Source: Desulfurococcales archaeon (GTDB lineage: Archaea; Thermoproteota; Thermoprotei_A; Sulfolobales; Desulfurococcaceae). From it: a stretch of DNA of 38,713 bases. The stretch spans positions 1 through 38,713 of the forward strand of contig JAMOPC010000361.1 of assembly GCA_027064845.1 (NCBI GenBank), given 5' to 3'. Positions within the stretch are counted from its first letter, which is position 1. Every line of letters starts with the position of its first letter. Of the stretch, positions 7,845 to 37,408 are shown piece after piece. The translations under genes were made by a program, and so were the position numbers. The notes beneath the pieces were generated by a model. It was given only the letters and a program-made list of their open reading frames with translations, was not told where the DNA came from and did no database searches.

Positions 7845-8297
7845 TTAGGGCAGTGTTACAGTAGCTGGATATTGTCCGCCACTGGCTGTGTGGATAACTA
7901 TACTGACTGTTTGCCCGGATGAACCAGTTATACTAAATTCTATTGTTGCTTGCGAACCAGGATACATTGTTATACCAGTAGTTGTTGAAGATACCGTGCC
8001 AGATGATGAAGCAACCGTCGGAAGGGCGGTTAAAGGAGTGTTATTCACAAATACGTTATCTATAGTCGCTATTTTTGTTCCTGTATTCTTTATAGTTATA
8101 TGAACCGTATATGTTCCTCCACTCCCTGTTGCATACGCGTTTACTATTTCTAGTTTTTCTACTCCTGTAAATGATGATGTTAGCCCTGTTATCCATAGTG
8201 CTACTGCTATGCTTATTGCAATAGCCACTGCTACAATTATTACTGTGGCTATGACTGGGGATATAGCCTTCATAGTTGTTTCACCAATATGTTTCAT
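7845..8297 (-). CDS. Archaeal type IV pilin / archaellin-type N-terminal domain protein
   Basis: N-terminus MKHIGETTMK|AISPVIATVIIVAVAIAISIAVALWITG matches the archaeal class III signal peptide/pilin helix; Thr/Ser/Gly-rich beta C-terminal domain. Confidence 0.88.
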   Translation of the reverse strand: MKHIGETTMKAISPVIATVIIVAVAIAISIAVALWITGLTSSFTGVEKLEIVNAYATGSGGTYTVHITIKNTGTKIATIDNVFVNNTPLTALPTVASSSGTVSSTTTGITMYPGSQATIEFSITGSSGQTVSIVIHTASGGQYPATVTLP

Positions 8298-8532: not shown

Positions 8533-9390
8533 GTGATGAAACTATTGAATAGTTTCTTTCAGAGATATGTAATAATTTTACTTGTTAGCATAGTGCTATT
8601 GTCCTCAATGGTTCTTGTTAATTCTCAAAATCCGCAAGAGGTGTGTCCTAGTAAGTGTAAATTGGATATTGCGTTTGCTCTTGATGTTTCGGGAAGTATG
8701 TCTGGTCAGCCTCTTGATGATCTTAAGGAAGCTACAACTACGTTTATTAATATGACTTGTCCAGATTGTCAATGGAGCATTGGATTAGTTGCATTCAATG
8801 ACACGGCTATTAACTTAACCTATCTAGGTTCACCAAGTAATGGTGTATTATACCCTGTATGTACTGAGGAAAACAAGACTACGTTGAGAAACATCATATA
8901 TACATTAAATGCTGGTGGATGGACTAATATAGGAGATGCAATTTATAACGCCACAGCAATGATACTTAACAGTGATAGACCAGACGCTAATAACATTCTT
9001 ATAATTGTCACAGATGGATCGCCGAACAGACCTCTCAACGTCCCAGATCCTGAAGAATACGCTAGAGAAGCAGCAGACTATGCTAAGTCACTTGGAATAG
9101 TGATTGTAGGTATCTACGTTGGTGATGCTACAGAGGATGGAGATGAATTCTTATTGAGTATTTCGTCTTCTCCTCAACACTTTATAAATGCAAGTATTCA
9201 GAGCAATATCAATATGAGTGATGCGTTCCTGATATTGTTTAATAGACTCTGTGAATTGTCTGAGGTTAAGGTAGGTGGAGAAGTAGAGATCTCCACTATT
9301 GATTCTAGTAATAATTTAATATACATGATTACAGGATATATTGCTGTTATATCGATAGTATCAGTGCTAATAATTAAGAAGAATAAATAA
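8533..9390 (+). CDS. Secreted von Willebrand factor A (vWA) domain protein with C-terminal TM anchor
   Basis: Signal peptide; MIDAS 'DIAFALDVSGSMSG', 'TNIGDAIYNA', 'IIVTDGSPN'; C-terminal 'VKVGGEVEI...' plus TM plus KKNK. Likely start is ATG at 8536. Confidence 0.85.
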   Translation: MMKLLNSFFQRYVIILLVSIVLLSSMVLVNSQNPQEVCPSKCKLDIAFALDVSGSMSGQPLDDLKEATTTFINMTCPDCQWSIGLVAFNDTAINLTYLGSPSNGVLYPVCTEENKTTLRNIIYTLNAGGWTNIGDAIYNATAMILNSDRPDANNILIIVTDGSPNRPLNVPDPEEYAREAADYAKSLGIVIVGIYVGDATEDGDEFLLSISSSPQHFINASIQSNINMSDAFLILFNRLCELSEVKVGGEVEISTIDSSNNLIYMITGYIAVISIVSVLIIKKNK

Positions 9391-9439: not shown

Positions 9440-10327
9440 CTAACCGGTGGAATGTGGCCATATTTTGTCCTTAAAATCCTCAATAGTGATATTACAGTAT
9501 TGTTTTGGATATATATCTAATAAGTAATTATTAGTTGATAACTTGTAGTTAATCTCATATAGAACTCGACACAGCGTTTTGTTTTCTTCAATAAATTCCT
9601 TTATAAAGAGTTTGAGAGCTTGATCCGCTGTATTTATGTCTACTTTATTATTCCATCCAATATAGACTTTAGCACCTTTCTTTATGAATGCTTCAGCCAT
9701 ATCTGGTGCTGATAAGCTGTAACATGATGATACATATATTATGCTTCCTTGGAACCTTGTATTAGATGATAAAACATATAGAGGTGTTATAACAAAGTAT
9801 CTCTTTCCCGGTTCTGCAAATGGAATACCCATACCCAGGAAACCCATATATAATAGATCAGTGTGTTTATTCGGATCATATGGTTCAGAGGTAAATATCC
9901 CGACTCTTCCCACATAATTGTTTTGACTCTTTATTATTCCTCCGTGAACTCTAAGAATAATGATCCGATAATCGTTGATGAGATTGAATAATTTAAACTG
10001 TAGATTATCTACAGTAACGTTCTTACCAAGCAACATATCCACAGTAAATCCCTTTCTCTCCAGAGCGTCTTTTATGTAATGTATAAGTTCATCGTTTGGG
10101 TAAGAATCATATAATCCATCGATAATAATTGCTTTGTATCTTCTATTCTCATTAGATACACTATTATTCGAGTATTGTAGTTTAAATGATATACCAATAG
10201 CTATGACTGTGATTACTATAACCGATATAAGTGTGATCTTGATATATCTTCTACGCTTCTCTCTTCTTATTTTTTCTGCTGCAGTAAGCTTCTTACTTTT
10301 CTTCATGTTCTTACCACATCTAAACAA
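9440..10327 (-). CDS. Membrane-anchored caspase-fold (clan CD / gingipain-CHAT-like) domain protein, predicted extracytoplasmic
   Basis: Basic N-terminus then one TM (ITLISVIVITVIAIGISF); His motif 'IILRVHGG' and Cys motif 'IIYVSSCYSLSAPDMAEAFIKKGAKVYIGWNNKV', the usual His/Cys dyad layout. Confidence 0.6.
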   Translation of the reverse strand: MFRCGKNMKKSKKLTAAEKIRREKRRRYIKITLISVIVITVIAIGISFKLQYSNNSVSNENRRYKAIIIDGLYDSYPNDELIHYIKDALERKGFTVDMLLGKNVTVDNLQFKLFNLINDYRIIILRVHGGIIKSQNNYVGRVGIFTSEPYDPNKHTDLLYMGFLGMGIPFAEPGKRYFVITPLYVLSSNTRFQGSIIYVSSCYSLSAPDMAEAFIKKGAKVYIGWNNKVDINTADQALKLFIKEFIEENKTLCRVLYEINYKLSTNNYLLDIYPKQYCNITIEDFKDKIWPHSTG

Positions 10328-10342
10328 GTTGTTAAGTTTTCG

Positions 10343-11320
10343 TTACTGCTTAGTCCTCGTTTCTCTTAATTTAACAATTTTTATTTTTCCTCTTTTCTCT
10401 GTTGCGACTATATTGAGTTTTTCAAGTTTTTTTACCTTTCTAGATACAACGCTTTTAGGAATATTTAAAGACTTAGAAATTGATGATATATTGGTGGTTC
10501 CCCCGCTCTTCTTGATATAATCGAGTATGAGTAGATCCCTATCGTCTAACGCACTAGTATAAACCTGTATTTCGTGTTTCTTACGTACTAAATACCTAGC
10601 TATCAGTATAGCTGCGGGTAAGACTATAGCTAATATAATGGCTAAAAATACATATGGATATATAATGGGATTCTCGGATTTATGATCTGTTCCGGGAGGG
10701 ATGGTGTAATTGGAAGTAGTTAAAGGAGGTGATTCATTAACATGGATATAGTTACTACTTATAGGAATATAGTAGATACGGATGCAATCGGTAATGTTGC
10801 TAGGAAAATATACGAACTTTACCCAGTTCTTTGAATACATAATATCGTCAGGGATTTCTTTTGGGATAATTATCCAGGATCTATTAAACTCTATAACAAC
10901 TTTTCCTTCAGGCTTCTCTAACTTAATAAGCCATAAGCTCTTATTCTTAAATGTTAAATCATTAGTATAATATATGATCGTAACATTTGTCTCATTATAT
11001 AAAAGGATATTCAGAGTGTTTGTAGTATTATCATATTTTAATATATATGCTGTACCATTTGTATTTATGAAAAATAGATTATTAATGGGTTTTCCATCTA
11101 ATAATATCTTGTAATAGTAGTTTAGCGCCGTGAATGAGATAGTAACTTTTACTTCTCCAGTAGGGAAAACCGTATATATTGTTTCTAAGGAGTTATATTT
11201 TCCATTTATACTAATCGAATAACATGTTGGAATAATGGTATTTAGCATTAATAGAATAATTAGAAATAATGGATAAATATGCTTTGCAGAAAACTCTCTC
11301 ATAAATATTCCTCTTATCAT
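10343..11320 (-). CDS. Membrane-spanning regulator: signal peptide, extracytoplasmic domain, TM, C-terminal cytoplasmic winged HTH
   Basis: TM 'YPYVFLAIILAIVLPAAILIARYLV' followed by 'DDRDLLILDYIKKSGGTTNISSISKSLNIPKSVVSRKVKKLEKLNIVATEKRGKIKIVKL', a MarR/ArsR-like wHTH. Confidence 0.75.
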   Translation of the reverse strand: MIRGIFMREFSAKHIYPLFLIILLMLNTIIPTCYSISINGKYNSLETIYTVFPTGEVKVTISFTALNYYYKILLDGKPINNLFFINTNGTAYILKYDNTTNTLNILLYNETNVTIIYYTNDLTFKNKSLWLIKLEKPEGKVVIEFNRSWIIIPKEIPDDIMYSKNWVKFVYFPSNITDCIRIYYIPISSNYIHVNESPPLTTSNYTIPPGTDHKSENPIIYPYVFLAIILAIVLPAAILIARYLVRKKHEIQVYTSALDDRDLLILDYIKKSGGTTNISSISKSLNIPKSVVSRKVKKLEKLNIVATEKRGKIKIVKLRETRTKQ

Positions 11321-12369
11321 TTCTTAAACGTGTAATTAATCTTTACTATGGGGATTAAATTCCTTAGGTAACCTATAATAACGCCATTACAATGGATTTC
11401 TTCTCCCTGAGATAGTTTTGGTGGATTTTCTATTATAATGATTCCGTCTGAAGAGTATTTAGATTCTACATATATAATGAATACCCCACTATAAATTGTT
11501 CTATTTTCAAATATAATTGTTCCATTGACCTTATACATTCTGGTTTCAGGTATGTATATTGTTCCGGGAAGGCTATAATTGCTTAGGACTATGGCATTTA
11601 TAGACATTGTTTTATTTAGTAGGTCTTTCATTATCATTACCTTATATATGAAAGTAATATTATCTTCTTTATATTCTTTTAAGGTTTGATTATATAGTTC
11701 AATCAGGTTCGGAAGTAATATGTTATTGTAAATGTCTCTGCTCACTATACTCATCAATGTTGTATTAATTGATTTAAATAGTTCTATTAAGAATTCTTGG
11801 CTTTTCTTATTTATAATGTTTCTAATAGTTCTAGAAATGTTGTAGATGATTTTATTATTGAACTTTTCTAATTTACTTGTTTTATTAAGTTTTTCTATTT
11901 GAACTTCTTTAATTCCTGTAGTGTTTTCATATGTTTTAATGATGTCTCTTAATAGTAATTCATTATATAGGGTTTCATTATATTCTGTTTTAATATTTGA
12001 TCTTTTTATTGCTTCAATGAGTAGTAGGAATACATATTCGAGATTTGCATAACACTTTTTATTGTAACTCGTGTTGATACAATACTCCTTTGTTGATTCA
12101 ATATATTCTTCTATTTCAGGATCAATTATAGATTTGTTAATAGCTTTGATTCTTTGAACTAAGTCTTCTAGATAAAGTATTATTTTATGAAGAGATTTTG
12201 TTTTCTTAATATTTTCCTGTCTTGATCTTAAATCTTGATAAATGAATTTATTATTAATTATCTTATTTTGCGTAGTGTCGATTTCCGCTGTTATTATGCT
12301 TGTTAAGATAGGAATCAACAATATAACTATGTAAAGAAGTATAACTCTGGTTCTAAATTTTTTAAACAA
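11317..12369 (-). CDS. Secreted protein, helical Lys/Glu/Asn-rich domain plus C-terminal beta domain
   Basis: Signal peptide-like N-terminus (RVILLYIVILLIPILTSIITA); 4-nt overlap with downstream wHTH gene. Confidence 0.6.
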   Translation of the reverse strand: MFKKFRTRVILLYIVILLIPILTSIITAEIDTTQNKIINNKFIYQDLRSRQENIKKTKSLHKIILYLEDLVQRIKAINKSIIDPEIEEYIESTKEYCINTSYNKKCYANLEYVFLLLIEAIKRSNIKTEYNETLYNELLLRDIIKTYENTTGIKEVQIEKLNKTSKLEKFNNKIIYNISRTIRNIINKKSQEFLIELFKSINTTLMSIVSRDIYNNILLPNLIELYNQTLKEYKEDNITFIYKVMIMKDLLNKTMSINAIVLSNYSLPGTIYIPETRMYKVNGTIIFENRTIYSGVFIIYVESKYSSDGIIIIENPPKLSQGEEIHCNGVIIGYLRNLIPIVKINYTFKK

Positions 12370-12596: not shown

Positions 12597-15500
12597 GTGG
12601 AAGGTATGAATAAACGTATTTCTGGCAAAATAATAACTATAGTTCTTGTAGCAATACTGATTCTAAACATTGCAACAGTCTCAGTAACCAATACAAGATT
12701 GATCTCGAATGAGCCTCATAACTATAAATCAAATGATCAAGGAACGAGAACTTTCAGCAAATTGAATGTAAATACTTTACTACTTCCACATAAGATTGAT
12801 CCGAAGATACTGGATCGTGACTACTTAGCGAAAAGAATAAGGGAACTAGAGCAAGCCAGAATCCTCGAGGAAAATGAGACCAAACTCATATTGAAAGTAT
12901 CTGATACAGCGAAATTAGATGATATTCAGAAAGTGCTAGAGAGATACTATGCCTCGATCCTTAAAGTTTATGAGTATATGGGGGTTATTCTAATAAGAGT
13001 CCCAACCGATGACGTTGTTACTGTTCAAAGGTTATCCATAGAGCTCGCTTCACTTAGCGACGTCGAATCCATATGGTTCGACGACGCCTTTAAAATTAAT
13101 ACAACGCTCTTCGATACGAGTGCTTTACTAGGTTTTGCAATATCTCACGGATACGGTATAAACGGATCAGGCATTAAAGTAGCAATACTAGATACTGGAA
13201 TTGATGCCTCACACCCAGAACTTAACGGGTCACTAATTGCATGGACCGATTTTATTAACAACCAGCAAAACCCCTATGACGATAATGGCCATGGAACTTT
13301 TGTAGCAGGCATTATAGCGGCAAGAGGAGTAGTTAGATTCATGGATGGTGAAAAATGCTGGCACACAATACTATATGATAATAGTGGAGAATTCAATTAT
13401 CCTGGACCAGCAAATCTCACTTATGAAGTCAATGTAACGGGCTATTCTGGATTTAACCTTACAGTAGAATGGTTACAGAGGTACTCCATAGAGCAAGGAT
13501 ATGATAAGGGAGAAGTATTATATAGATTTGATAACACTTCATGGACCCTGCTAGCAACCTACACTGGATCGAATTTCTCTCTTCAGCACATTCAGTATAA
13601 TATCACTATTCCAGTAAATGCCACTAAGTTCTATATATCCTTCATATATGAACCAGACTATTCCGCCCAGCGTATGGGTTGGTTCATAGACGACATTAGA
13701 ATAACCGTAAATGGCACAACCCTTCTCTACGATGACGTAGAGGGTCCACCTCCACAGGGATTAATAGAGGCAAAACTATGGGTAAGGACGACTGATAGAT
13801 TAGTTGGAGTAGCACCAGGAGCTTCTCTAATGGTTGCTAAAGTATGTAGCTCGAGTGGTGGATGTCCCTACGATGCTATCCTTAATGGAATATATTGGGC
13901 TGTTCTAGGACCAGATCAATCGCCTAACACTGGTGATGAAGCAGACGTTATCTCCATGAGTCTTGGTGGACCAGCATATAGCTATGACATTCTAATGCAA
14001 ACGATTGACTGGGCGTATTCAATGAACGTAACATGTGTAATAGCTGCTGGTAACTCTGGACCAGGATATAAGACTGTAGAATCGCCGGGTGCTGCTAGGG
14101 GAGCAATTGCTGTAGGTGCATCAACCAAGCTGAATACGATAGCTTACTTTAGTAGCTGGGGTCCAAGCCCTATTGATTATACGATCAAGCCGGATATAGT
14201 AGCTCCTGGACGTTACATAGTATCAACGTATTCAGCTCAGGCAGCAGGATATCCTTCTGGAGCCTATGTCTTAGCTGTTGGTAGCGGTACAAGCTTCTCA
14301 ACACCCCATGTCAGCGGTATTGTGGCTCTAATTAAACAGGCTCACCCAACATGGACTCCTGAAGAGATAAGAGCCGCTCTAGTATCTACAGCGACAGAAC
14401 ACATTATACCAAACTCCTACACTCCAAGCATAGTCAACCCATATATTGAAGGAGGAGGATTACCAAATATCAATAGAGCTATAGAGACAGAATTCTTGCC
14501 AGTTCCTGCGATAGTGAGTTTTGGACAAGTCGTTCCTAAGGAAGCAACTAACTTATCCAGCGAGGTACTTTTAAAGAACTATGGAACATCTCCACTAGGA
14601 GTTATCGTTATTTCAGTAGAGCTATACGATGATAAAGGAAATGATTACTCATCATGGATACAGGAACCAATAATAGGAGAATCATGGAATATTACTCCAG
14701 GAAGTAGCGCTATTCTCCCCATTAATGTCACTGTTCCTCAAGGGGCTGGCTCCGGTTACTATTGGGGAAGAATACTATTACAAACATCTGATGACCAAGT
14801 ATATCAAGTAATATTCGGGTTCACGATATTACCAATAATACATATATCAGGAACCGTATACGATGTTTCAACAGATCTTCCTCTCGGCGGCGTAAATGTA
14901 ACGGTAATCCGTGACGATACTGGAGAAGTTCTAGACTGGTGCATAACTGATAGTGAGGGCAGATTCAATGTAACGGCAATAGGTGATACACCAATTAGAA
15001 TACTAGGAAACCTTACAGGCTACTATCTCTATATGACTACAAGCTTAAGATATAGTAGCAACGTGACAGGTTTCGAGATCTACATGACTCCCAGATACGG
15101 TTACTATGATAAACAAGTGCTTGTCGTAGTGGATACAGAGTATGGCGGATGGTCTTTATCCTATGATCCTTCAGAAGATATAACGATACTTAATGGTACC
15201 TTAGGCATTGTGGACAGAATATGGCATAACTCCAAACAAGGCGTTGCATATGATGCAATAATGTCTGGTGACTTCCCCGTAGTTGTCTGGCTTAGTGATG
15301 GAATATGGAGCCCTGTCAACGATATATACGACTATATAGCCTTGATATCAGTTAGTCAAGAGAATGGTAGAGGAATTCTTCTAGAGGGCGGAGATATTGG
15401 CTGGTATCATAGCGGAGACTATCTAATGTGGTATGTAGCACACGCTCAGTTCTATCAAGATCTAGAACCCGATGTGTATCAATTATTCGTATCTAGATCA

Positions 15501-16604
15501 CATCCATTAACAAGCGTATTACCGAGCAACTTTACAATTGATTCAACTTACTCCGGTTACCCAGATGTAGTAATTCCTGTAAACAACGGTACAGATATTG
15601 TGAACTGGACAGATTATAGCGGGTCAGCTATAGTAGTATATGATGGTAGAGTGTTTGGAGGAGCTAGAACAGTATATATTGCCTTTGCATTAGAAGCTAT
15701 GGAGTCCAGCCTAAGGACAAAGTTCGCAAATATTTCGATAATATGGTTGCTTGACCAGGGATCGCCGATATATACAGGGCATAAGATCGAGGTAACCTAC
15801 AACTATAAGGCTGGAAGAATAATGGCTTACTGGCAGCCATTCATAGACCCACCATTCAATATAATAGTAGAGCAAAGAGTATACCTCAACGGCACTCTTA
15901 TAGCTACTCTTCCATCATCAGTAACTTCAATAGATCTAACATCCTATGTCGCTAAAGGCAAATTATACAATATCACAGTAGAGGCGATCGACTTATTAAA
16001 CCAGTCAACCACAGTATCTGCATTGTTTAAGATAGTACCCCCAGGACTAAAAGGTGAAGCAGTAGGTTTCTCAGAACCAGGTATATTCGAGGAGGACTTA
16101 GGATTAACATTCCCAGGCAAAGCCACAGTGTCGGTAAGGGATTCACCTGCGTCAATACAAATATATGAGCTAAACAGATTCCAATTCACACCACCTGAAC
16201 CAGAAAAAATAATACTCTATAGCGTTGACTTCAGCATACAGAACCCAGAAAACTTTGAGCAAATAATACTATCACTCAAATACCCACTCAGAATATTTTA
16301 CTTGAATAAATCCTCAGTAAAACCATACTGGTGGGATGGAAGCACCTGGAGAGAATTCAGTAACTTCACAATTGATACGAGGAACAACATATTAACGATC
16401 TATATAGACAATAGTACTACTCCATCATTATCAGATCTAATAGGAACACCGATAATAATAACTGGTGAAAAGATCCCAGTAGGCGGAGAAATAACCATAT
16501 CCAACAGCCCTGTAGAACAATCCCTAGAATTAATAGTAGCGATAATAACGAACTTAACAATAACTCTTACAGCAATTCATCTCCTAAGAACAAAAACTAA
16601 ATAA
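12597..16604 (+). CDS. Large secreted S8 subtilisin-like serine protease with inserted domain, carboxypeptidase regulatory-like domain and C-terminal membrane anchor
   Basis: Catalytic motifs 'VKVAILDTGIDASHPEL' (Asp), 'DDNGHGTFVAGIIA' (His), 'GSGTSFSTPHVSGIVALI' (Ser); 'ISGTVYDVSTDLPLGGVNVTVIRDDTGE'; C-terminal 'PVGGEITISNSP' plus TM plus RTKTK. Likely start ATG at 12606. Confidence 0.93.
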   Translation: MEGMNKRISGKIITIVLVAILILNIATVSVTNTRLISNEPHNYKSNDQGTRTFSKLNVNTLLLPHKIDPKILDRDYLAKRIRELEQARILEENETKLILKVSDTAKLDDIQKVLERYYASILKVYEYMGVILIRVPTDDVVTVQRLSIELASLSDVESIWFDDAFKINTTLFDTSALLGFAISHGYGINGSGIKVAILDTGIDASHPELNGSLIAWTDFINNQQNPYDDNGHGTFVAGIIAARGVVRFMDGEKCWHTILYDNSGEFNYPGPANLTYEVNVTGYSGFNLTVEWLQRYSIEQGYDKGEVLYRFDNTSWTLLATYTGSNFSLQHIQYNITIPVNATKFYISFIYEPDYSAQRMGWFIDDIRITVNGTTLLYDDVEGPPPQGLIEAKLWVRTTDRLVGVAPGASLMVAKVCSSSGGCPYDAILNGIYWAVLGPDQSPNTGDEADVISMSLGGPAYSYDILMQTIDWAYSMNVTCVIAAGNSGPGYKTVESPGAARGAIAVGASTKLNTIAYFSSWGPSPIDYTIKPDIVAPGRYIVSTYSAQAAGYPSGAYVLAVGSGTSFSTPHVSGIVALIKQAHPTWTPEEIRAALVSTATEHIIPNSYTPSIVNPYIEGGGLPNINRAIETEFLPVPAIVSFGQVVPKEATNLSSEVLLKNYGTSPLGVIVISVELYDDKGNDYSSWIQEPIIGESWNITPGSSAILPINVTVPQGAGSGYYWGRILLQTSDDQVYQVIFGFTILPIIHISGTVYDVSTDLPLGGVNVTVIRDDTGEVLDWCITDSEGRFNVTAIGDTPIRILGNLTGYYLYMTTSLRYSSNVTGFEIYMTPRYGYYDKQVLVVVDTEYGGWSLSYDPSEDITILNGTLGIVDRIWHNSKQGVAYDAIMSGDFPVVVWLSDGIWSPVNDIYDYIALISVSQENGRGILLEGGDIGWYHSGDYLMWYVAHAQFYQDLEPDVYQLFVSRSHPLTSVLPSNFTIDSTYSGYPDVVIPVNNGTDIVNWTDYSGSAIVVYDGRVFGGARTVYIAFALEAMESSLRTKFANISIIWLLDQGSPIYTGHKIEVTYNYKAGRIMAYWQPFIDPPFNIIVEQRVYLNGTLIATLPSSVTSIDLTSYVAKGKLYNITVEAIDLLNQSTTVSALFKIVPPGLKGEAVGFSEPGIFEEDLGLTFPGKATVSVRDSPASIQIYELNRFQFTPPEPEKIILYSVDFSIQNPENFEQIILSLKYPLRIFYLNKSSVKPYWWDGSTWREFSNFTIDTRNNILTIYIDNSTTPSLSDLIGTPIIITGEKIPVGGEITISNSPVEQSLELIVAIITNLTITLTAIHLLRTKTK

Positions 16605-16828: not shown

Positions 16829-19315
16829 GTGAAGTATATGTATAAAAAAGTCGGATTAGCTATAGTACTAGCGTTATTCATACTCTCAAATGTTCCATTA
16901 ATAACAGTTTCACAGGCTCCAACAGTATCATATTCTCCTATGAAGCAATTAAAAGGAGTACTAGAGGAAGATAGAGAGGCATACATGAATGCTGACGGAA
17001 ACCCCTTACATGAAGACATTGCAAACGCTGTATTTCAGGGTCCCGGCATATTTGGTTCACCTACTGTAGGTTATATGAAGAACCTAGAACTAGTATTAAC
17101 AAGGTTAGGAACCATCGGTAACATGACATATAGAGAATGGAGATGGGAAAACACACCACAAATGAGCAGCAAACCAGGATTCCCAAGCACTCTCGAAGAC
17201 GTACTTAACGGCTACCCGTTAGAGGGATGGGTAGTCTACTATAAGGCAAGAATAATTGACCCCTCCTCCGAGAGCCTTGACAACCCAAGTGGAGTGGTTG
17301 TAGCAACATACTCAGCACTAGGCAGTACATCAATTGATAAAGGAAAAGTACTACAGTCAGACTACTTCTACATTGTTGATAGTGGAATAACCTCTGAAGT
17401 ATGGGTTGACAACCCAAGACTATACGTAGTGAAATACGTTATACCACTAAGAGCTGAGATAAACCACGACAAAGAAGGTACCCCAATTAATGAAACAATC
17501 TATGCAGACTTCCAGCTAACAATCATAATCGTATTCAACAAAGTCACAAAATTCGTTGAAATATTCCAGAAACTAGATGCAACCTTAGTAGCAATGCCAC
17601 ACGATTGGAAGATAGAATTGAAATTCGGAATGGCTAGAGAAGCTATCCTAGACGCTAATCCAAATAGCGACAAAGCATTCTATGGTTGGAAAACACTAAA
17701 ACTAACCGACCCTGAGGAAGTATTCCTAGTTCTAAGCTGGGTAAACAAGACACTTGATCCATATATACAGCCTCCGGGAAGCTATTATGCAGCATATGCT
17801 TTAGCATATCCTGTCCCAGAGTCTTTTGCAATATCATCAACTATATACAACTATGACGACACGTCAGCCATATGGAGTCACAACCCAATTGATAGCGATA
17901 CGTATAAGGACTATGTAGCATTAAACCTTACCACGGGTGATCAAGCATTAATAAGATTTGATTGGAAAGGATCATTGACAATGATAGTTAATCCATCACC
18001 AACTTCTGAGACATCATCCACAGGCTGGAAGATGATAATGTACGGTATATATGATGTAACCCCAACATATGATGGCGGAGTTGGTGGAATGTTTGAAAGA
18101 GGAGAACTAATGATCAATCCTGATGAGTATTATATCGGTAATATTACCAACCTAGTAAAAATGCCTGATAATGTCACTATAACTGAGTGGTTACATACAG
18201 GCACTTTGGGCTATCTAAACGGTCTTGTCAACGAAACAACATTAATGAGCCATGAAGGCACACTTACAAAGTATGTATCATACCTCGACATTGACCAAGA
18301 CGGAAACAAGGATGAAGCAGAAGACCTAGACGGAGATAAAGTCTCTTCAAGCGATGAATACGATATAGCATACTCATGGTATCCAACAGAAGAATTTATC
18401 TGGCAGTTAAGCTGGAAGTTCAGACCACCAGTATTCTGTAAGGAAATAGAGACAGTTTGCTGCAGATACTCTGGTAATGAGTTTGTAGGAAACGACTTCT
18501 TAGTCATGCCATCACCAGGTGCTACACCAGACGCAGCAGGCTCAGCATGGTTAAACGGACTATTCGAAGCATGGCTAGTGACATTTGATGTCGAAGCATA
18601 TAACATGGAGGCAACAGTAGGATATACAAATCCGGCAAACAAGATGCTACCCTACATGATGCTAAGACTAGAGCCCATACCATCAACAACCGAAGTATAT
18701 AGATCAAGTACATGGAAGTCTGGAAGAGTAGGACATTACATGACAGACGATTTAAGAGTTTTGCCACAGATGGAGTGGACTGATGTAACATGGACTCAGT
18801 GGAGAGACGTACACTACTTCGCAATATCAGTTGCTGGCATACACCCCAACCTATTAACGTTCTATGCAAATGACTTCGTACCAATAGTAAGACCTATTGG
18901 TGGAGACTATGGCCCAGGATACTTAGTAGTACTACCAGTGACTGGACCTGTATCGATCTCAGAGTATGTTGGCGGAGACGTAGGAGCCGGAGTAATTGCA
19001 CTAGCAAGAGATCACTTCAACAATACTTACTTAATAGTATACGGATTAGACGCACAAGACACCTACTGGACAGCGTGGTTTGCAACATTCCAGTTACTAA
19101 ACTTAGATGAAGAATACCTATGCAGTCAAGCAATAATGATAGAAATAGACTACAGCAACATAGGACACGAATGGGGCGACGGAACCGGCATACCAATAGC
19201 ACATCCCAACTATCCATTCGTAAATGGTGAACCAGGATTCACAATATTATATAAGGCTATAGAACACGGAAACCTAGATGGAGACTGGAGCTGCGGCTGT
19301 GGAATCAGAATGTGA
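16829..19315 (+). CDS. Large secreted surface protein of unknown family, S-layer-like candidate (likely start ATG at 16838)
   Basis: Signal peptide (KKVGLAIVLALFILSNVPLITVSQA); no C-terminal TM; Ca-loop-like motifs; GGTGA 5 nt before ATG 16838. Confidence 0.75.
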   Translation: MKYMYKKVGLAIVLALFILSNVPLITVSQAPTVSYSPMKQLKGVLEEDREAYMNADGNPLHEDIANAVFQGPGIFGSPTVGYMKNLELVLTRLGTIGNMTYREWRWENTPQMSSKPGFPSTLEDVLNGYPLEGWVVYYKARIIDPSSESLDNPSGVVVATYSALGSTSIDKGKVLQSDYFYIVDSGITSEVWVDNPRLYVVKYVIPLRAEINHDKEGTPINETIYADFQLTIIIVFNKVTKFVEIFQKLDATLVAMPHDWKIELKFGMAREAILDANPNSDKAFYGWKTLKLTDPEEVFLVLSWVNKTLDPYIQPPGSYYAAYALAYPVPESFAISSTIYNYDDTSAIWSHNPIDSDTYKDYVALNLTTGDQALIRFDWKGSLTMIVNPSPTSETSSTGWKMIMYGIYDVTPTYDGGVGGMFERGELMINPDEYYIGNITNLVKMPDNVTITEWLHTGTLGYLNGLVNETTLMSHEGTLTKYVSYLDIDQDGNKDEAEDLDGDKVSSSDEYDIAYSWYPTEEFIWQLSWKFRPPVFCKEIETVCCRYSGNEFVGNDFLVMPSPGATPDAAGSAWLNGLFEAWLVTFDVEAYNMEATVGYTNPANKMLPYMMLRLEPIPSTTEVYRSSTWKSGRVGHYMTDDLRVLPQMEWTDVTWTQWRDVHYFAISVAGIHPNLLTFYANDFVPIVRPIGGDYGPGYLVVLPVTGPVSISEYVGGDVGAGVIALARDHFNNTYLIVYGLDAQDTYWTAWFATFQLLNLDEEYLCSQAIMIEIDYSNIGHEWGDGTGIPIAHPNYPFVNGEPGFTILYKAIEHGNLDGDWSCGCGIRM

Positions 19316-19504
19316 TCAAATTTTAAACCTTAGTATAAAAAATAAATATATAACTTTTTTTAAAACCTATAATCATTAATCTAACTCAACTCCTCAAAAC
19401 AATAAAGGAACGAAATAAAGCATATATACATTATTTTATATTAATTTGACATCATGAACTGGATAAAATGTTTTTAAGAATTATAAAAATGAAAGTGGTC
19501 AGAT

Positions 19505-20596
19505 TTGCATATTAAGATAAGTAAAAGATCAATATGCGTATTTTTAATATTTGTTATCATAAGTATAGCCTATCGAGCGTATATAATAGAATCATTTTCT
19601 CATAATAGCAGTTTCACGGATTACGGGTCGTTAGCGTCAGAAAATTCGGTTTATAATAAAGTATATGTTCCGGATAATATTTCTTCAATAAATACGGCTT
19701 TGAGCATGGTTTCTCCTGGTGGAACAATATATCTTAAAAAAGGAGTTTATAACGAATATGTCAGAATAAATAAATCAGTCAGAATTATCGGTATAGGAGA
19801 AGTTATCATAACGAACAGAATAATAATATCTTCAACGAAAAACGTGTCAATCCATAATGTATCTATATCAATCTTTCCTCCCGGTTCTGAAGAAGCACTC
19901 ATTATTTACAATTCGTCTAATATAAAATTATTCAACATTAGTTTCATTTACTCAGGTATAATAATTACTAGATCTCAAAATATATTAATAATTAATTCTA
20001 ATTTCGAAAAGGTAAGTTTTCCCTCAATAATAATAAAGAACAAATCACATAATATCACCATAGAATATAATGTTTTCAACAACGTATACACTGCATTAAC
20101 AGTCTTTGATGGAAGCAATATTATTTTTTCTTTTAACAAAATTTTCCAGACTAGGTCATATGGTGTAAAACTGTTATCTAAATCAATGAATGTAAAAGTT
20201 TATCTTAATAATTTCTACGATGATGTAAAATGCTATGATGAGGGAAGAAATAATCTCTGGTATGATCCCATTACTAAGCTAGGAAACTACTGGGAACACA
20301 CTACCAAAACAATCGAACATAATCTAAATAATCAGACCTGTAATTATTATATAAGAATAGATGGTTCAGCAAATAATATTGATAAATACCCATTATGCTC
20401 TAGTTATGAAAATTATATATCAATATTTAAGAACACCCATGATCATAGATTCGAAAATACGAGTATCACAGGTACATCAGTTCCTTCTACAAGATCCGAT
20501 AGACCTACATATATCTTAACCGCTTTACCAATATGCATCCTTATATTAGTTCTTCTAATTCTAATTTATTACAGGAGGAGAAAGAGAAATGAGTAA
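19505..20596 (+). CDS. NosD/PbH1-type right-handed beta-helix surface protein with C-terminal TM anchor
   Basis: 'DNISSINTALSMVSPGGTIYLKKGVYNEYVRINKSVRIIGIGEVIITN' NosD-like; repeated 'SKNVSIHNVSI/SSNIKLFNISF/SQNILIINSNF' rungs; C-terminal TM plus RRRKRNE. Confidence 0.8.
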   Translation: MHIKISKRSICVFLIFVIISIAYRAYIIESFSHNSSFTDYGSLASENSVYNKVYVPDNISSINTALSMVSPGGTIYLKKGVYNEYVRINKSVRIIGIGEVIITNRIIISSTKNVSIHNVSISIFPPGSEEALIIYNSSNIKLFNISFIYSGIIITRSQNILIINSNFEKVSFPSIIIKNKSHNITIEYNVFNNVYTALTVFDGSNIIFSFNKIFQTRSYGVKLLSKSMNVKVYLNNFYDDVKCYDEGRNNLWYDPITKLGNYWEHTTKTIEHNLNNQTCNYYIRIDGSANNIDKYPLCSSYENYISIFKNTHDHRFENTSITGTSVPSTRSDRPTYILTALPICILILVLLILIYYRRRKRNE

Positions 20597-21950
20597 TTCT
20601 GAAGAGAAAAATAGTATGTACATAGTATATTTCCTAATAATTTTACTATTAATTAGTTCTACGAATACCTATGTGTACGCGGATGATAAATATAAAGCAC
20701 TATCTTATCCCATAGCAATTGGATACATGGGAAATAATAGATTCATTCTATACAGTAATAATACTATATACAAAATCCTAGATGATGGAAGTCAAGAATT
20801 TTTAATCAGCATTCCTGCTTCAATAAACATATCAAGTTATACAATACATGAATTCACAATAGTTAATAATAACATCTGCTTCTTCCTCTATAAAAACATA
20901 AACAAAACCGCTGGATATACTCGGATACTTGTATGGGATACAACAAGTAAAAAAATAATATTTAATAAAACCTTCGTATTTAGCCTAATAAATAAAACAG
21001 CAGTACGGGGTAACTTAGCAACTATAGCAGCCATGACGAATAAAGGGCTTGCAGTAATAATTTCTAATACAACATCAACATATATACTCGTATACAAGAG
21101 AATAAATAATACGTTTAAATTATTTAGAACATATGATAAAACATATTCTTACACACTATATATTTACAACAACACAATCCTAGGGATAATCCCATACATA
21201 GGCACCTATTATAACAGAACAGTTCTAATACCCCATCTAGTAGACTTATTTACAAACACATCAATATTCGAGATACCATCACTAATACCCGTAATACCAT
21301 TCGGCACCCCAATAGTTCAAATATACAAAAACATGACATCTTGGATCATACACGTTACAGTAATCAATAAATTAGCCCATAGAATAGAATACTATATAAC
21401 AAAACCTAAAAGCTACGAATTAAAAGACGCATCAAAAGCATCATTCTCACCAATCCTAGACTGTGCAGTCTTCGAAACACAGAACGGAGCAATTATACTA
21501 TTACCTGACGGAACCAAGTACTTCCTGAACAAATACCTACCTGTCTTACCCCGAGAAGTCTTCATGCTAATAGACCCGCCAAATGGCATAATAGACGTCG
21601 ACCAGAACAATCATAGAATGCTCTTAAAATATAACAAGGGAAACATCACCGAGATATTCCTACTAGAAAACAATAAACTACACAAAATATACGAACTACC
21701 AGCAAAATACTCATATAAATCAAACGGATTCTATGGTACAATAAAAGGAAACTACGCCTTCCTAATAGATCCAGAAAAGCACAAACTAATAAAAATCAAT
21801 CTTGAAGAAGTATTAAAATCAATCAATAAAGGCGACGATATTAAGGTTGAAAACAATTTCCGCGTCTACTTATTAATAGCAGTTTTTATAATTAGTGTTC
21901 TCATAGTTATTTTACTTATCAAATATAGATATAAGTTAAAGCCAAAATGA
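20589..21950 (+). CDS. Membrane-anchored extracytoplasmic beta-propeller-like protein
   Basis: Overlaps upstream ORF by 8 nt; signal peptide, repeated beta blade-like segments, C-terminal TM 'VYLLIAVFIISVLIVILLIKYRYKLKPK'. Confidence 0.55.
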   Translation: MSNSEEKNSMYIVYFLIILLLISSTNTYVYADDKYKALSYPIAIGYMGNNRFILYSNNTIYKILDDGSQEFLISIPASINISSYTIHEFTIVNNNICFFLYKNINKTAGYTRILVWDTTSKKIIFNKTFVFSLINKTAVRGNLATIAAMTNKGLAVIISNTTSTYILVYKRINNTFKLFRTYDKTYSYTLYIYNNTILGIIPYIGTYYNRTVLIPHLVDLFTNTSIFEIPSLIPVIPFGTPIVQIYKNMTSWIIHVTVINKLAHRIEYYITKPKSYELKDASKASFSPILDCAVFETQNGAIILLPDGTKYFLNKYLPVLPREVFMLIDPPNGIIDVDQNNHRMLLKYNKGNITEIFLLENNKLHKIYELPAKYSYKSNGFYGTIKGNYAFLIDPEKHKLIKINLEEVLKSINKGDDIKVENNFRVYLLIAVFIISVLIVILLIKYRYKLKPK

Positions 21951-31962: not shown

Positions 31963-33681
31963 TTATTGTTTTTTGTGTGTTTTTGTTAGTATTGTTATTG
32001 TTGTTGTTAGGACTATTGTTGTTAGTGTTGCTATGATTATTGTTAGTGTGTCTGTGTCTGTGTGTTCTGGTGTGTTTGGTACGGTTATTTCTCCTCCTAC
32101 TTTCATGGGTTGTCCGGATAGGACGAATACTGCTTCATCTCCTGCTAGGTATTCATCCATTGTTATGTTTGCATAAACAATTTTATGATCTTTATCAATC
32201 CATGTATTACTACACCTCATATATTCTCCAGCACTAGCATTATAGTAGTAAATACCAAGACTATCCTCAGAGACACCAAGTGCTTCTAGATCATAACCAC
32301 TATAATTAACAGCTATCGTTATAGGCCAAACAACATTATTGGTATTATCAATATACAATGCATAATAATAACCTATACCATCAATCGATGCATTACCAGT
32401 AGGCTCATCATCATATGTAGCTATTGCTGTATATACATAGTCTGTGTCATTTATAGTAATAATAGAATTACCAATGACTATATTCATAAGACCCGGGCCC
32501 CATCCAACGCTTCTATAATCCACTACATATGCTACATAACCACCCTTACCAACAGTATAAATAATTCTTGTGGACCAAGGCCACACACCGTATGGAGCAT
32601 ATATGCGATATAAGTGGTCTCTTATGTGGAACCAATAATGTGGATCTATTATTGTTATGTTTTTACCGGCTAATCCATCCTCAATGCCTATGAGTGATAA
32701 GTTTAATGCGGCTTCAACATTCTTTGTATTGTAAAATGTTATATTATAGTAAACAGTATTATTATTATACCAATTCCAACTGCCTGACGACATATTATGT
32801 ATCCCGACGCTCCAAGGAGTCATGTATATTTCGTAGTCTATTGTTCCATCATTATCTATATCCACTCTGAAACTCAATTCATGCCAGTAGTCTAGTCCGT
32901 TGTATTTTGTTGTATTTATTTCTTCTGCTAGATCGAATCTTACGAATAAATGTTTATTATCTGTTGCTATGTAGATAGCTGTGAGGTTGAATTCTTGATA
33001 CGGATTAAGTATTCCATCATCACCATCCACTGCCAACAAGGCATTATCTGGCCAATCACTTGGCTCTCCATCAACAACTATATCCGCATAAGGCACCGTA
33101 TAATTGGGGAAGTAATTGTCAATAGGGTAATCATCACCATAAGTGTTACCTTCGATACCTTGTATCATTATAGTAGATCCACTAGTTATGTTTAACTTAT
33201 CTAATGGAATCATCAGAGTCATAGAATAATCGTCTCCTATAACCCATTCGCCACGCCATTCATAACCTAACCAGGTTCCATTACTAGCATAATAATTAAT
33301 CCATAGATCTGTCCAATTACCCCACTCATAACGTCTGTACCATGAGCCAATAGAAACCTCGTAGCCATCACAAGGAGTTCCTGCGCCCGATCCTGTTTTT
33401 CTATTATTATCCAGATCTAGGCGGAAGCCTAAATACCTACCAATATCATATGACACCGGAGTTCCTGAAGGGAATGGCTTGTTCCATATAGCTTTAATAA
33501 TTAGGTGCGTGCCATTGTCAGTTACTGTTACATTGTCTAGATCTATATATGTTCCAGTCTCTATTCTATCATATGCTATCACAGGATTAGATATATTCGT
33601 ATCAGTAATTACCACCATCGCCACAGTATTAAGTAATAATAATAATGATACAAGAACTGGAAAGAGATGCTTCCTCACCAT
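31963..33681 (-). CDS. Secreted DOMON/CBM9-like surface protein with C-terminal membrane anchor
   Basis: Signal peptide; 'YLGFRLDLDNNRKTGSG...CDGYEVSIG', 'FNLTAIYIATDNKHLFVRFDL' typical of DOMON/CBM9-like folds; C-terminal 'KVGGEITVPNTP' plus Thr-rich TM plus KTHKKQ. Confidence 0.7.
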   Translation of the reverse strand: MVRKHLFPVLVSLLLLLNTVAMVVITDTNISNPVIAYDRIETGTYIDLDNVTVTDNGTHLIIKAIWNKPFPSGTPVSYDIGRYLGFRLDLDNNRKTGSGAGTPCDGYEVSIGSWYRRYEWGNWTDLWINYYASNGTWLGYEWRGEWVIGDDYSMTLMIPLDKLNITSGSTIMIQGIEGNTYGDDYPIDNYFPNYTVPYADIVVDGEPSDWPDNALLAVDGDDGILNPYQEFNLTAIYIATDNKHLFVRFDLAEEINTTKYNGLDYWHELSFRVDIDNDGTIDYEIYMTPWSVGIHNMSSGSWNWYNNNTVYYNITFYNTKNVEAALNLSLIGIEDGLAGKNITIIDPHYWFHIRDHLYRIYAPYGVWPWSTRIIYTVGKGGYVAYVVDYRSVGWGPGLMNIVIGNSIITINDTDYVYTAIATYDDEPTGNASIDGIGYYYALYIDNTNNVVWPITIAVNYSGYDLEALGVSEDSLGIYYYNASAGEYMRCSNTWIDKDHKIVYANITMDEYLAGDEAVFVLSGQPMKVGGEITVPNTPEHTDTDTLTIIIATLTTIVLTTTITILTKTHKKQ

Positions 33682-35707: not shown

Positions 35708-37408
35708 TTATGTTATGCTTGAGAGTGATGGTCCGAGAATTGTTCCTATGAAGTAATTTGTTACATACGTGCTAACATACATTCCGAGACCTGTTAGTAA
35801 TAACATTACTCCTAAGTAGTAGAAAACAGCATATCTCGAGCCAGGATTTACTGCTGTTAAAGTAATAGTGTTTGCAAAAGTGATTATTACGAGCATAATG
35901 TTTGTTAGAAGTGATACATCCTCTTCTCTAATATTGAAGAATTTGAATAGATCAGCAAATTCTGGTGGGACTTGGACAGCGAAGTGAGTTATTATACTTG
36001 AGAATATAGTCACGAAATTTGTGATAAGCATTAATATCAATATTGTCGCTATGTGCATTATGTAAAGTGTTGCCTCGAACGTTTTGAAGACCTGTGCATA
36101 GTTAATTCTTAATCTATAAAGCTCGTTTATGTGGTTTGAAAGCATTGCACCCGCTTCTCTAGTATTTCCACCAGCTTCTATAGTGTCAATGAATATGTGA
36201 CTACTCCTTGAGATGAATTCACTACAAGATTCTTCAGCGAAATATTTCCACGCAATCCTTGGATCAATCCTATTAACAAGTCTTACATAAAATCTTCTTA
36301 AGAGATTCTTTAATTTACCTAGCTCAGCTATAAGTAGAGGCTTTAATGCCTCAATCAGGCTTGGGACAACGCTTAAGTGTTCACCATAGCTTCTAATAAA
36401 GGCTGGGAAAAACATATCGTATTCATTTATTCTTCCTTCATGGATCTTTATAAGTATACCTATAGGTAACATGACTAGTCCGGAGAATATTAAGTACTTT
36501 GAAACTTCTTCAACGTCTAAGATCTTCATCGTATAAGATAAATAGACTATTACAAAAGCAAAGACAAGAGACGACAATATTCCTCCAATACTTATGATCC
36601 TTACAATTAATGGTTTATGTTGGGGTTTGGCTTCGAATAAGGGTTTTCTCACAAATGCTCTCAATAAGATGGCCATTCCTGATAACGTGACTCCAGTAGC
36701 TATCATTGATGTAACCATCATCTTCTGTATTCCACCAAAGATCATGCCTAAGAGGATGAGATTAGCTTGCATAAAGACTAATGCTCCCAAGAGGGTAACA
36801 TATATTCCCAGAACAACTCTGAGCGACTCGATTAGTCTATTATATGCAGATAAGTATTCACTAAACAATGTATTATACTCAATTCTCAAGTATTCTTTTA
36901 TATCACCACCTGTAGCGACAATGGCTGATAGTCTCTGTAAAAACATTTCATCAACCTTATACTTTACTTCACGCGATACAAGTCTTAGTGCTTCCGGAGC
37001 ACTGTATCCCCATTGCCCTATCAGTCCTTGAAGCTTCTTAAACAAGTTTTGATAGTACTTGCTGTAGAGGGGAGTTTCACCAATGTATTTAAACATGAGT
37101 GTTAGAGGAGGATTTCCCGTGACAAGACATCTTAAGTGTATTAGGATAAAAGTTAGATCGTCTGGGACGGGGATTATTCCAAGCCTCTTGATTGCCTTAT
37201 AATAATAGATGAAAAGAAATGAGACAAAAATAACAGTAACTCCTACAATTATGGCGGGATAGAATGGCAAGTATTTTGAGGCGAGATATACAACAATAGT
37301 ATCAAAGATTACAACAGCTATAGTTACCCATTTATGAGTAATTGCTCTCTCAATAAAGGGGTGGATAAGTTCTTTTACTCTATTAATACTTCTTACCCTA
37401 CTAGGCAT
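35708..37408 (-). CDS. Second FlaJ/TadC-like type II/IV secretion membrane protein
   Basis: Multi-TM with 'IVATGGDIKEYLRIEYNTLFSEYLSAYNRLIESLRVVLGIYV' and 'FIDTIEAGGNTREAGAMLSNHINELYRLR'. Confidence 0.8.
   Translation of the reverse strand: MPSRVRSINRVKELIHPFIERAITHKWVTIAVVIFDTIVVYLASKYLPFYPAIIVGVTVIFVSFLFIYYYKAIKRLGIIPVPDDLTFILIHLRCLVTGNPPLTLMFKYIGETPLYSKYYQNLFKKLQGLIGQWGYSAPEALRLVSREVKYKVDEMFLQRLSAIVATGGDIKEYLRIEYNTLFSEYLSAYNRLIESLRVVLGIYVTLLGALVFMQANLILLGMIFGGIQKMMVTSMIATGVTLSGMAILLRAFVRKPLFEAKPQHKPLIVRIISIGGILSSLVFAFVIVYLSYTMKILDVEEVSKYLIFSGLVMLPIGILIKIHEGRINEYDMFFPAFIRSYGEHLSVVPSLIEALKPLLIAELGKLKNLLRRFYVRLVNRIDPRIAWKYFAEESCSEFISRSSHIFIDTIEAGGNTREAGAMLSNHINELYRLRINYAQVFKTFEATLYIMHIATILILMLITNFVTIFSSIITHFAVQVPPEFADLFKFFNIREEDVSLLTNIMLVIITFANTITLTAVNPGSRYAVFYYLGVMLLLTGLGMYVSTYVTNYFIGTILGPSLSSIT

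Follow-up and report, generated by a model that had tools for sequence, protein, structure and literature searches.

The window analysed here, a stretch of 38,713 nt that is part of a 2.49-Mb assembly in 523 contigs, carries on its minus strand a gene (positions 9440 to 10327) for a 295-aa protein without any Pfam or NCBIfam assignment. It raises the question of what this protein does and with which of the surrounding gene products it works. An earlier note on this DNA had tentatively read the gene as the caspase-like component of a three-gene operon devoted to sensing at the cell surface.

Gene arrangement in the window

Three minus-strand ORFs form the putative operon, and their arrangement agrees with the one described in the earlier note. 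The first gene encodes an orphan secreted protein of 350 aa (11317 to 12369) with a hydrophobic segment at its N-terminus, for which the family-profile search gave no match. It overlaps by 4 nt (ATGA; 11317/11320) with the gene of a 325-aa membrane-tethered winged-helix regulator (10343 to 11320), and the TTG start codon of the 295-aa ORF (10327) is located 15 nt past the stop codon of the latter. An alternative start of the peptidase gene, the ATG at 10306 (residue 8), is preceded by a GGTAAG box and would leave a gap of 36 nt; judging from the sequence it is probably the likelier start, the TTG being doubtful.

The hydrophobic segment at the N-terminus of the 325-aa protein is followed by an ectodomain, a single transmembrane helix (TM) and a cytoplasmic winged helix near the C-terminus (HTH_24, residues 258-305, E=5e-7). 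The proposed topology of an outside domain, a single TM and an inside winged helix-turn-helix (wHTH) domain was thus confirmed.

Elsewhere in the window a type IV pilin-like protein with similarity to UpsA is encoded at positions 7845-8297 (NCBIfam NF046073, E=2e-9, below the cut-off), and a T2SSF-type pilus assembly gene at 35708-37408.

A family of predicted membrane-anchored peptidases with a caspase fold

In the 295-aa protein a basic N-terminus and one TM (approximately residues 33-52) precede the motifs R-V-H-G-G (H128) and S-S-C-Y-S (C202), in line with the predicted N-in/C-out orientation and extracytoplasmic domain. Sequence searches of the PDB with the single protein and with a 14-row profile yielded no clan CD match, and a fold prediction was therefore needed. 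AlphaFold predicted the structures of the window protein and of a Dehalococcoidia member with a pLDDT of 89 each. In the models H128 is positioned directly past β3 (residues 120-126) and C202 past β4 (196-199) of an α/β/α sheet, which corresponds to the order and placement of His and Cys, and to the caspase/hemoglobinase fold, by which clan CD is recognised. Foldseek placed CHAT proteases at the top and separase, legumain and gingipain lower, with moderate TM-scores of 0.3-0.5; flavodoxins were among the matches via the common Rossmann-like core, and the receptor matches look to us like fusion constructs. The transmembrane anti-sigma factor DdvA (8rot, 8rw5) was matched by both models. The caspase-like assignment made in the earlier note is supported by these models, and we take the clan CD membership of the predicted peptidase as computationally established.

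In the profile searches the window peptidase matched neither the C25 nor the CHAT family, and two other, divergent members remained sub-threshold (C25, 15.3 bits against a cut-off of 23; CHAT, 18.4 against 24). There was no match to PF04203, and the fold differs from the β-barrel of sortases (C60). A match to PF09721 was likewise not obtained, the protein having a single TM instead of a polytopic architecture, and no sequence match to C13 was found.

A search of 60 related genomes detected 13 homologs of the peptidase in which R126, H128, C202, G218 and D235 are invariant, and in a sample of the phylum Thermoproteota the peptidase was present in 65 of 398 genomes. A named genome collection added members from Bathyarchaeota, Pyrodictium and other Desulfurococcales, Terraquivivens, a Baldrarchaeota MAG, Dehalococcoidia and Desulfobacterales; the range of the family comprises Thermoproteota, Bathyarchaeia, one Asgard MAG, Dehalococcoidia and Desulfobacterales. 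Of the 125-member alignment, all 124 sequences that could be aligned at this position have H128, and all 125 have C202. Due to this conservation the two motifs are not a product of chance, and the His-Cys dyad postulated earlier holds across the homologs. The family to which the peptidase belongs, undescribed and unannotated so far, consists of cysteine proteases with a caspase fold and a membrane anchor; its members come from archaea and from some bacteria. In the open-access papers searched, no archaeal sortase that is caspase-like or of clan CD was found.

In a divergent subgroup (L145-L149) the Arg ahead of the catalytic His is replaced by Asn (N-T/S-H-G) and no VGG neighbour (see below) is present; some of its members carry an additional C-terminal TM. 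Three Dehalococcoidia genomes (G423, G529, G586) encode three peptidase paralogs each.

Companions of the peptidase gene

According to the earlier note, the peptidase would cleave or sense at the surface and the membrane wHTH protein would relay the signal to the DNA. The 4-nt overlap in the genome of the window and the genuine wHTH domain are consistent with such a system. However, no homolog of the 350-aa gene was detectable in 60 relatives, and the membrane wHTH type, which occurs in 44 of 61 genomes and was matched mostly via its wHTH part, was never encoded near the peptidase gene in the 11 other peptidase-carrying genomes. On these two findings the three-gene operon was rejected as a conserved unit. 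A survey of gene neighbourhoods in related genomes showed no co-occurrence of the three genes, whereas the peptidase itself recurs. Moreover, the recurrent neighbours of the peptidase, across more than 100 loci, are genes for proteins with a distinct C-terminal tail, referred to as VGG-CTERM. It therefore seems highly improbable that the operon is a surface-sensing system. The wHTH protein and the 350-aa protein are local operon companions of the peptidase, being neither core parts nor conserved partners.

A common tail on neighbouring surface proteins

The statistics of this analysis build on called ORFs and on a simple rule for hydropathy. The neighbour directly upstream of the peptidase gene encodes a secreted C-anchored protein in 29% of 74 loci and the neighbour directly downstream in 16%, compared with 0-11% for other positions. 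The ectodomains of these anchored neighbours are unrelated (CARDB, PKD, InlB-type repeats, SBP, S8, β-helix, VWA), yet their C-termini are built alike: a spacer separates VGG(E/Y/I) from a TM, and the end is basic. A motif followed by a TM and a basic C-terminus, shared by secreted proteins that are unrelated in other respects, is the pattern of a tripartite sorting signal.

When anchored proteins encoded adjacent to the peptidase were compared with other anchored proteins, VGG came out on top among 2,576 k-mers (22/30 vs 4/51, p=1.3e-9). Since the motif had been discovered post hoc in these first loci, it was tested in further ones, and it is the replication sets that carry the weight: in 39 further loci VGG was present in 18 of 25 adjacent anchored proteins and in 4 of 29 non-adjacent ones (p=2e-5). 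A [VI]GG-CTERM gene directly adjoins the peptidase gene in 30 of 68 non-redundant loci, the background being 12 of 553 genes, and in the archaeal loci PEF-type tails occupied this position in 0 of 34 cases. About half of the peptidase loci are without an adjoining VGG-CTERM gene. None of the curated NCBIfam sorting-domain models, including GlyGly-CTERM, matched the VGG tails above cut-off.

Three proteins in the window carry the tail and are predicted substrates of the peptidase. The first is a secreted S8 subtilase encoded on the plus strand at 12597 to 16604 (PF00082, E=5e-57), divergently from the operon, where the earlier note had indeed located an S8 protease gene and had considered it a possible target. 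The link between this gene and the operon stands; it now has the appearance of an enzyme and its tagged substrate, since the protein ends in a VGG-CTERM (16479 to 16604, plus strand; VGG codons 16479-16487; E=2e-11 with the A4 tail model) of the form ..KIPVGGEITISNSP..TM..LLRTKTK. The second is a secreted VWA-domain protein (8533 to 9390, plus strand; PF00092, E=1e-17), the gene of which converges on the peptidase gene and the tail of which (9271 to 9390, plus strand; VGG codons 9271-9279; E=4e-10) reads ..VKVGGEVEIS..TM..KKNK. Whereas these two genes flank the peptidase operon, the third, encoding a secreted protein of 572 aa, is located at 31963 to 33681 on the minus strand (VGG codons 32092-32100; E=3e-10). 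A search for VGG tails in the remainder of the assembly retrieved only a fragmentary near-copy of the 572-aa protein.

The window furthermore contains a surface module of three genes on the plus strand (16829 to 21950), which encode proteins of 828 aa, 363 aa (β-helix) and 453 aa. It is homologous to a three-gene module in another archaeal family (L016; identities 36%, 27% and 27%) that is located directly upstream of a peptidase gene and forms one operon with it, the peptidase gene being the last.

Co-occurrence of tail and peptidase across genomes

In Thermoproteota, searched with the VGG-tail profile, unlinked VGG-CTERM proteins were found in 11 of 65 genomes with the peptidase and in 4 of 333 without it (p=8e-7), and in Dehalococcoidia, searched with archaeal-trained tails only, full-motif matches were found in 7 of 20 and 0 of 177 genomes, respectively (p=4e-8); related genomes are not independent events in these counts, which is partly offset by the replication in a bacterial class. 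One genome (G556) encodes a single peptidase and 12 VGG-CTERM proteins, most of them with an N-terminal signal; an example of their tails is VGGEVYPVDRLQILMPWLGLAALMALAMAVVVIMKRRRTA. Exceptions occur in both directions. Some peptidase-carrying genomes (G032, G041) have no detectable VGG tail, and three or four genomes without the peptidase have plausible ones (G067, G372, G337, perhaps G223). The VGG-like matches in G226 and G184 and one of the two in G223 were rejected as false positives, as they turned out on inspection to be C-termini of transporters or coiled coils. Signal and enzyme co-occur across genomes, imperfectly and with a few exceptions.

Genes for surface proteins generally cluster, and the peptidase and the tailed proteins could merely be co-located in such neighbourhoods, with no enzyme-substrate relation between them. 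This is very unlikely, considering that the enrichment beside the peptidase is limited to VGG-bearing C-anchored proteins and that unlinked VGG proteins co-occur with the peptidase in two domains of life. The pairing of rhombosortase with GlyGly-CTERM was defined by a many-to-one pattern and by adjacency when the system is dedicated (Haft 2011, PMC3237569); the VGG-CTERM proteins are likewise many to one peptidase in G556 and adjoin it in dedicated systems.

An enzyme of a known type, rhombosortase or archaeosortase, might nevertheless process the VGG-CTERM proteins, the caspase-like protein having another role in the same surface modules. In favour of this, GlyGly-CTERM is the signal of rhombosortase (PMC3237569), and exosortase/archaeosortase genes (PF09721) are present in 12 of the 31 peptidase-carrying genomes checked; a gene of this family also occurs in Bathyarchaeia and in the assembly of the window itself. 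Against it, both exosortase and sortase domains (PF09721, PF04203) are absent from all seven Dehalococcoidia genomes with VGG tails, the tails match no curated model above cut-off, and in the archaeal loci those of the PEF type never adjoin the peptidase. Although rhombosortase and GlyGly-CTERM (PMC3237569; PMC6219818) resemble the present system in the tripartite tail with GG, TM and basic end, in the many-to-one ratio and in the frequent adjacency of a single target to its enzyme, rhombosortase belongs to the polytopic rhomboid serine proteases, in contrast to the single-TM clan CD cysteine peptidase described here, and VGG falls outside the GlyGly-CTERM model. Archaeosortase A/PGF-CTERM and exosortase/PEP-CTERM share with it the tripartite tails, the occurrence on archaeal surface proteins and the Cys nucleophile. 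However, the PF09721 enzymes are polytopic, unrelated to the peptidase and directed to a different motif, and they are absent from 19 of the 31 genomes checked. Judging from the sortase and exosortase/archaeosortase domains looked for, processing by one of these known enzyme types seems unlikely.

Proposed function

From the fold, the conservation of the dyad, the adjacency, the co-occurrence and the many-to-one ratio, all of which were computed, we infer recognition, cleavage site, transfer and anchor as follows. The product of the gene at 9440-10327 would be held in the membrane by its N-terminal anchor with the active site outside the cell, where it would recognise secreted proteins at the end of which V-G-G(E/Y/I) is followed first by a spacer and then by a TM helix with a basic tail. 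The membrane-held precursor would be cut at or near GG, with Cys202 forming a thioester and His128 assisting, and the part comprising TM and basic tail would be released. The acyl-enzyme would most likely be passed to the amine of a lipid or glycan anchor, in the manner of sortase, PorU and GPI transamidase, or alternatively to water, which would result in hydrolytic release. In the window the flanking S8 protease, the VWA protein and the 572-aa protein are the predicted substrates. We consider it quite probable that the peptidase is a clan CD sortase- or transamidase-like enzyme for VGG-CTERM proteins. It probably represents a novel enzyme type, with the anchoring or trimming of surface proteins as its task.

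The hydrolytic variant, a sheddase or C-terminal signal peptidase which frees VGG-CTERM proteins from the membrane without attaching them to a new anchor, is rather less probable. Most clan CD enzymes are endopeptidases (PMC12445089). A hydrolase would account for every genomic association seen, and release could be of benefit to S8 protease substrates such as those in the window and in L108. Most substrates, however, are large and adhesin-like or S-layer-like (PKD, CARDB, InlB-repeat) and are expected to stay on the cell, and other enzymes acting on tripartite signals keep their substrates anchored (PMC11980579).

For the sortase- or transamidase-like reaction clan CD offers two precedents, PorU (PMC4560394) and PIGK (PMC9098846). 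PorU (PG0026) of type IX secretion, a C25 enzyme with the Cys/His dyad of clan CD, has been suggested to cleave off a signal at the C-terminus and to attach a glycolipid. It is located in the outer membrane and its signal is a folded CTD domain, in contrast to the VGG-TM-basic tail, and within the present family C25 was reached below threshold in one member. The GPI transamidase subunit PIGK/Gpi8 (C13) is likewise a membrane-associated, extracytoplasmic clan CD enzyme, and its substrates present a small residue, a hydrophilic spacer and a hydrophobic tail. It acts within a multi-subunit eukaryotic complex and without a fixed motif, whereas the peptidase is paired with the VGG motif and has no C13 match. 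The best structural matches, CHAT and TPR-CHAT (Craspase), are cytosolic CRISPR/defence proteases with other domains, and the peptidase family remains below the Pfam cut-off for CHAT.

Surface-protein attachment in Crenarchaeota, Bathyarchaeia and Dehalococcoidia is largely unknown, and the known enzyme types looked for, sortase and exosortase/archaeosortase, do not account for their VGG-tailed proteins. A caspase-fold enzyme together with a defined motif and a substrate list would suggest a likely function for many unannotated proteins. Whether these enzymes form a widespread separate class of prokaryotic sorting/anchoring enzymes of caspase fold, dedicated to VGG-CTERM in Thermoproteota, Bathyarchaeia, Asgard archaea, Chloroflexota and Desulfobacterota and adding a new lipid or glycan anchor as the mechanistic counterpart of GPI transamidase, appears evenly balanced to us; if true, GPI anchoring, which a clan CD transamidase carries out, would have its parallel in prokaryotes.

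Tail variants

In five loci of the Dehalococcoidia (L304, L305, L306, L308, L309) the tail variant VGG(I/V)S...TM...WYARRRWLR was found beside peptidase paralogs. Bathyarchaeia-type loci (L117, L127, L131, L135, L143) also contain proteins with IPEF or VPEF tails, which do not adjoin the peptidase; such PEF-type tails are probably targets of archaeosortase. Finally, a membrane wHTH protein in another genome (G406; L258, positions 863-1717) carries PVGGE directly before its TM, with the wHTH domain in the cytoplasm, and this regulator may possibly be processed itself.
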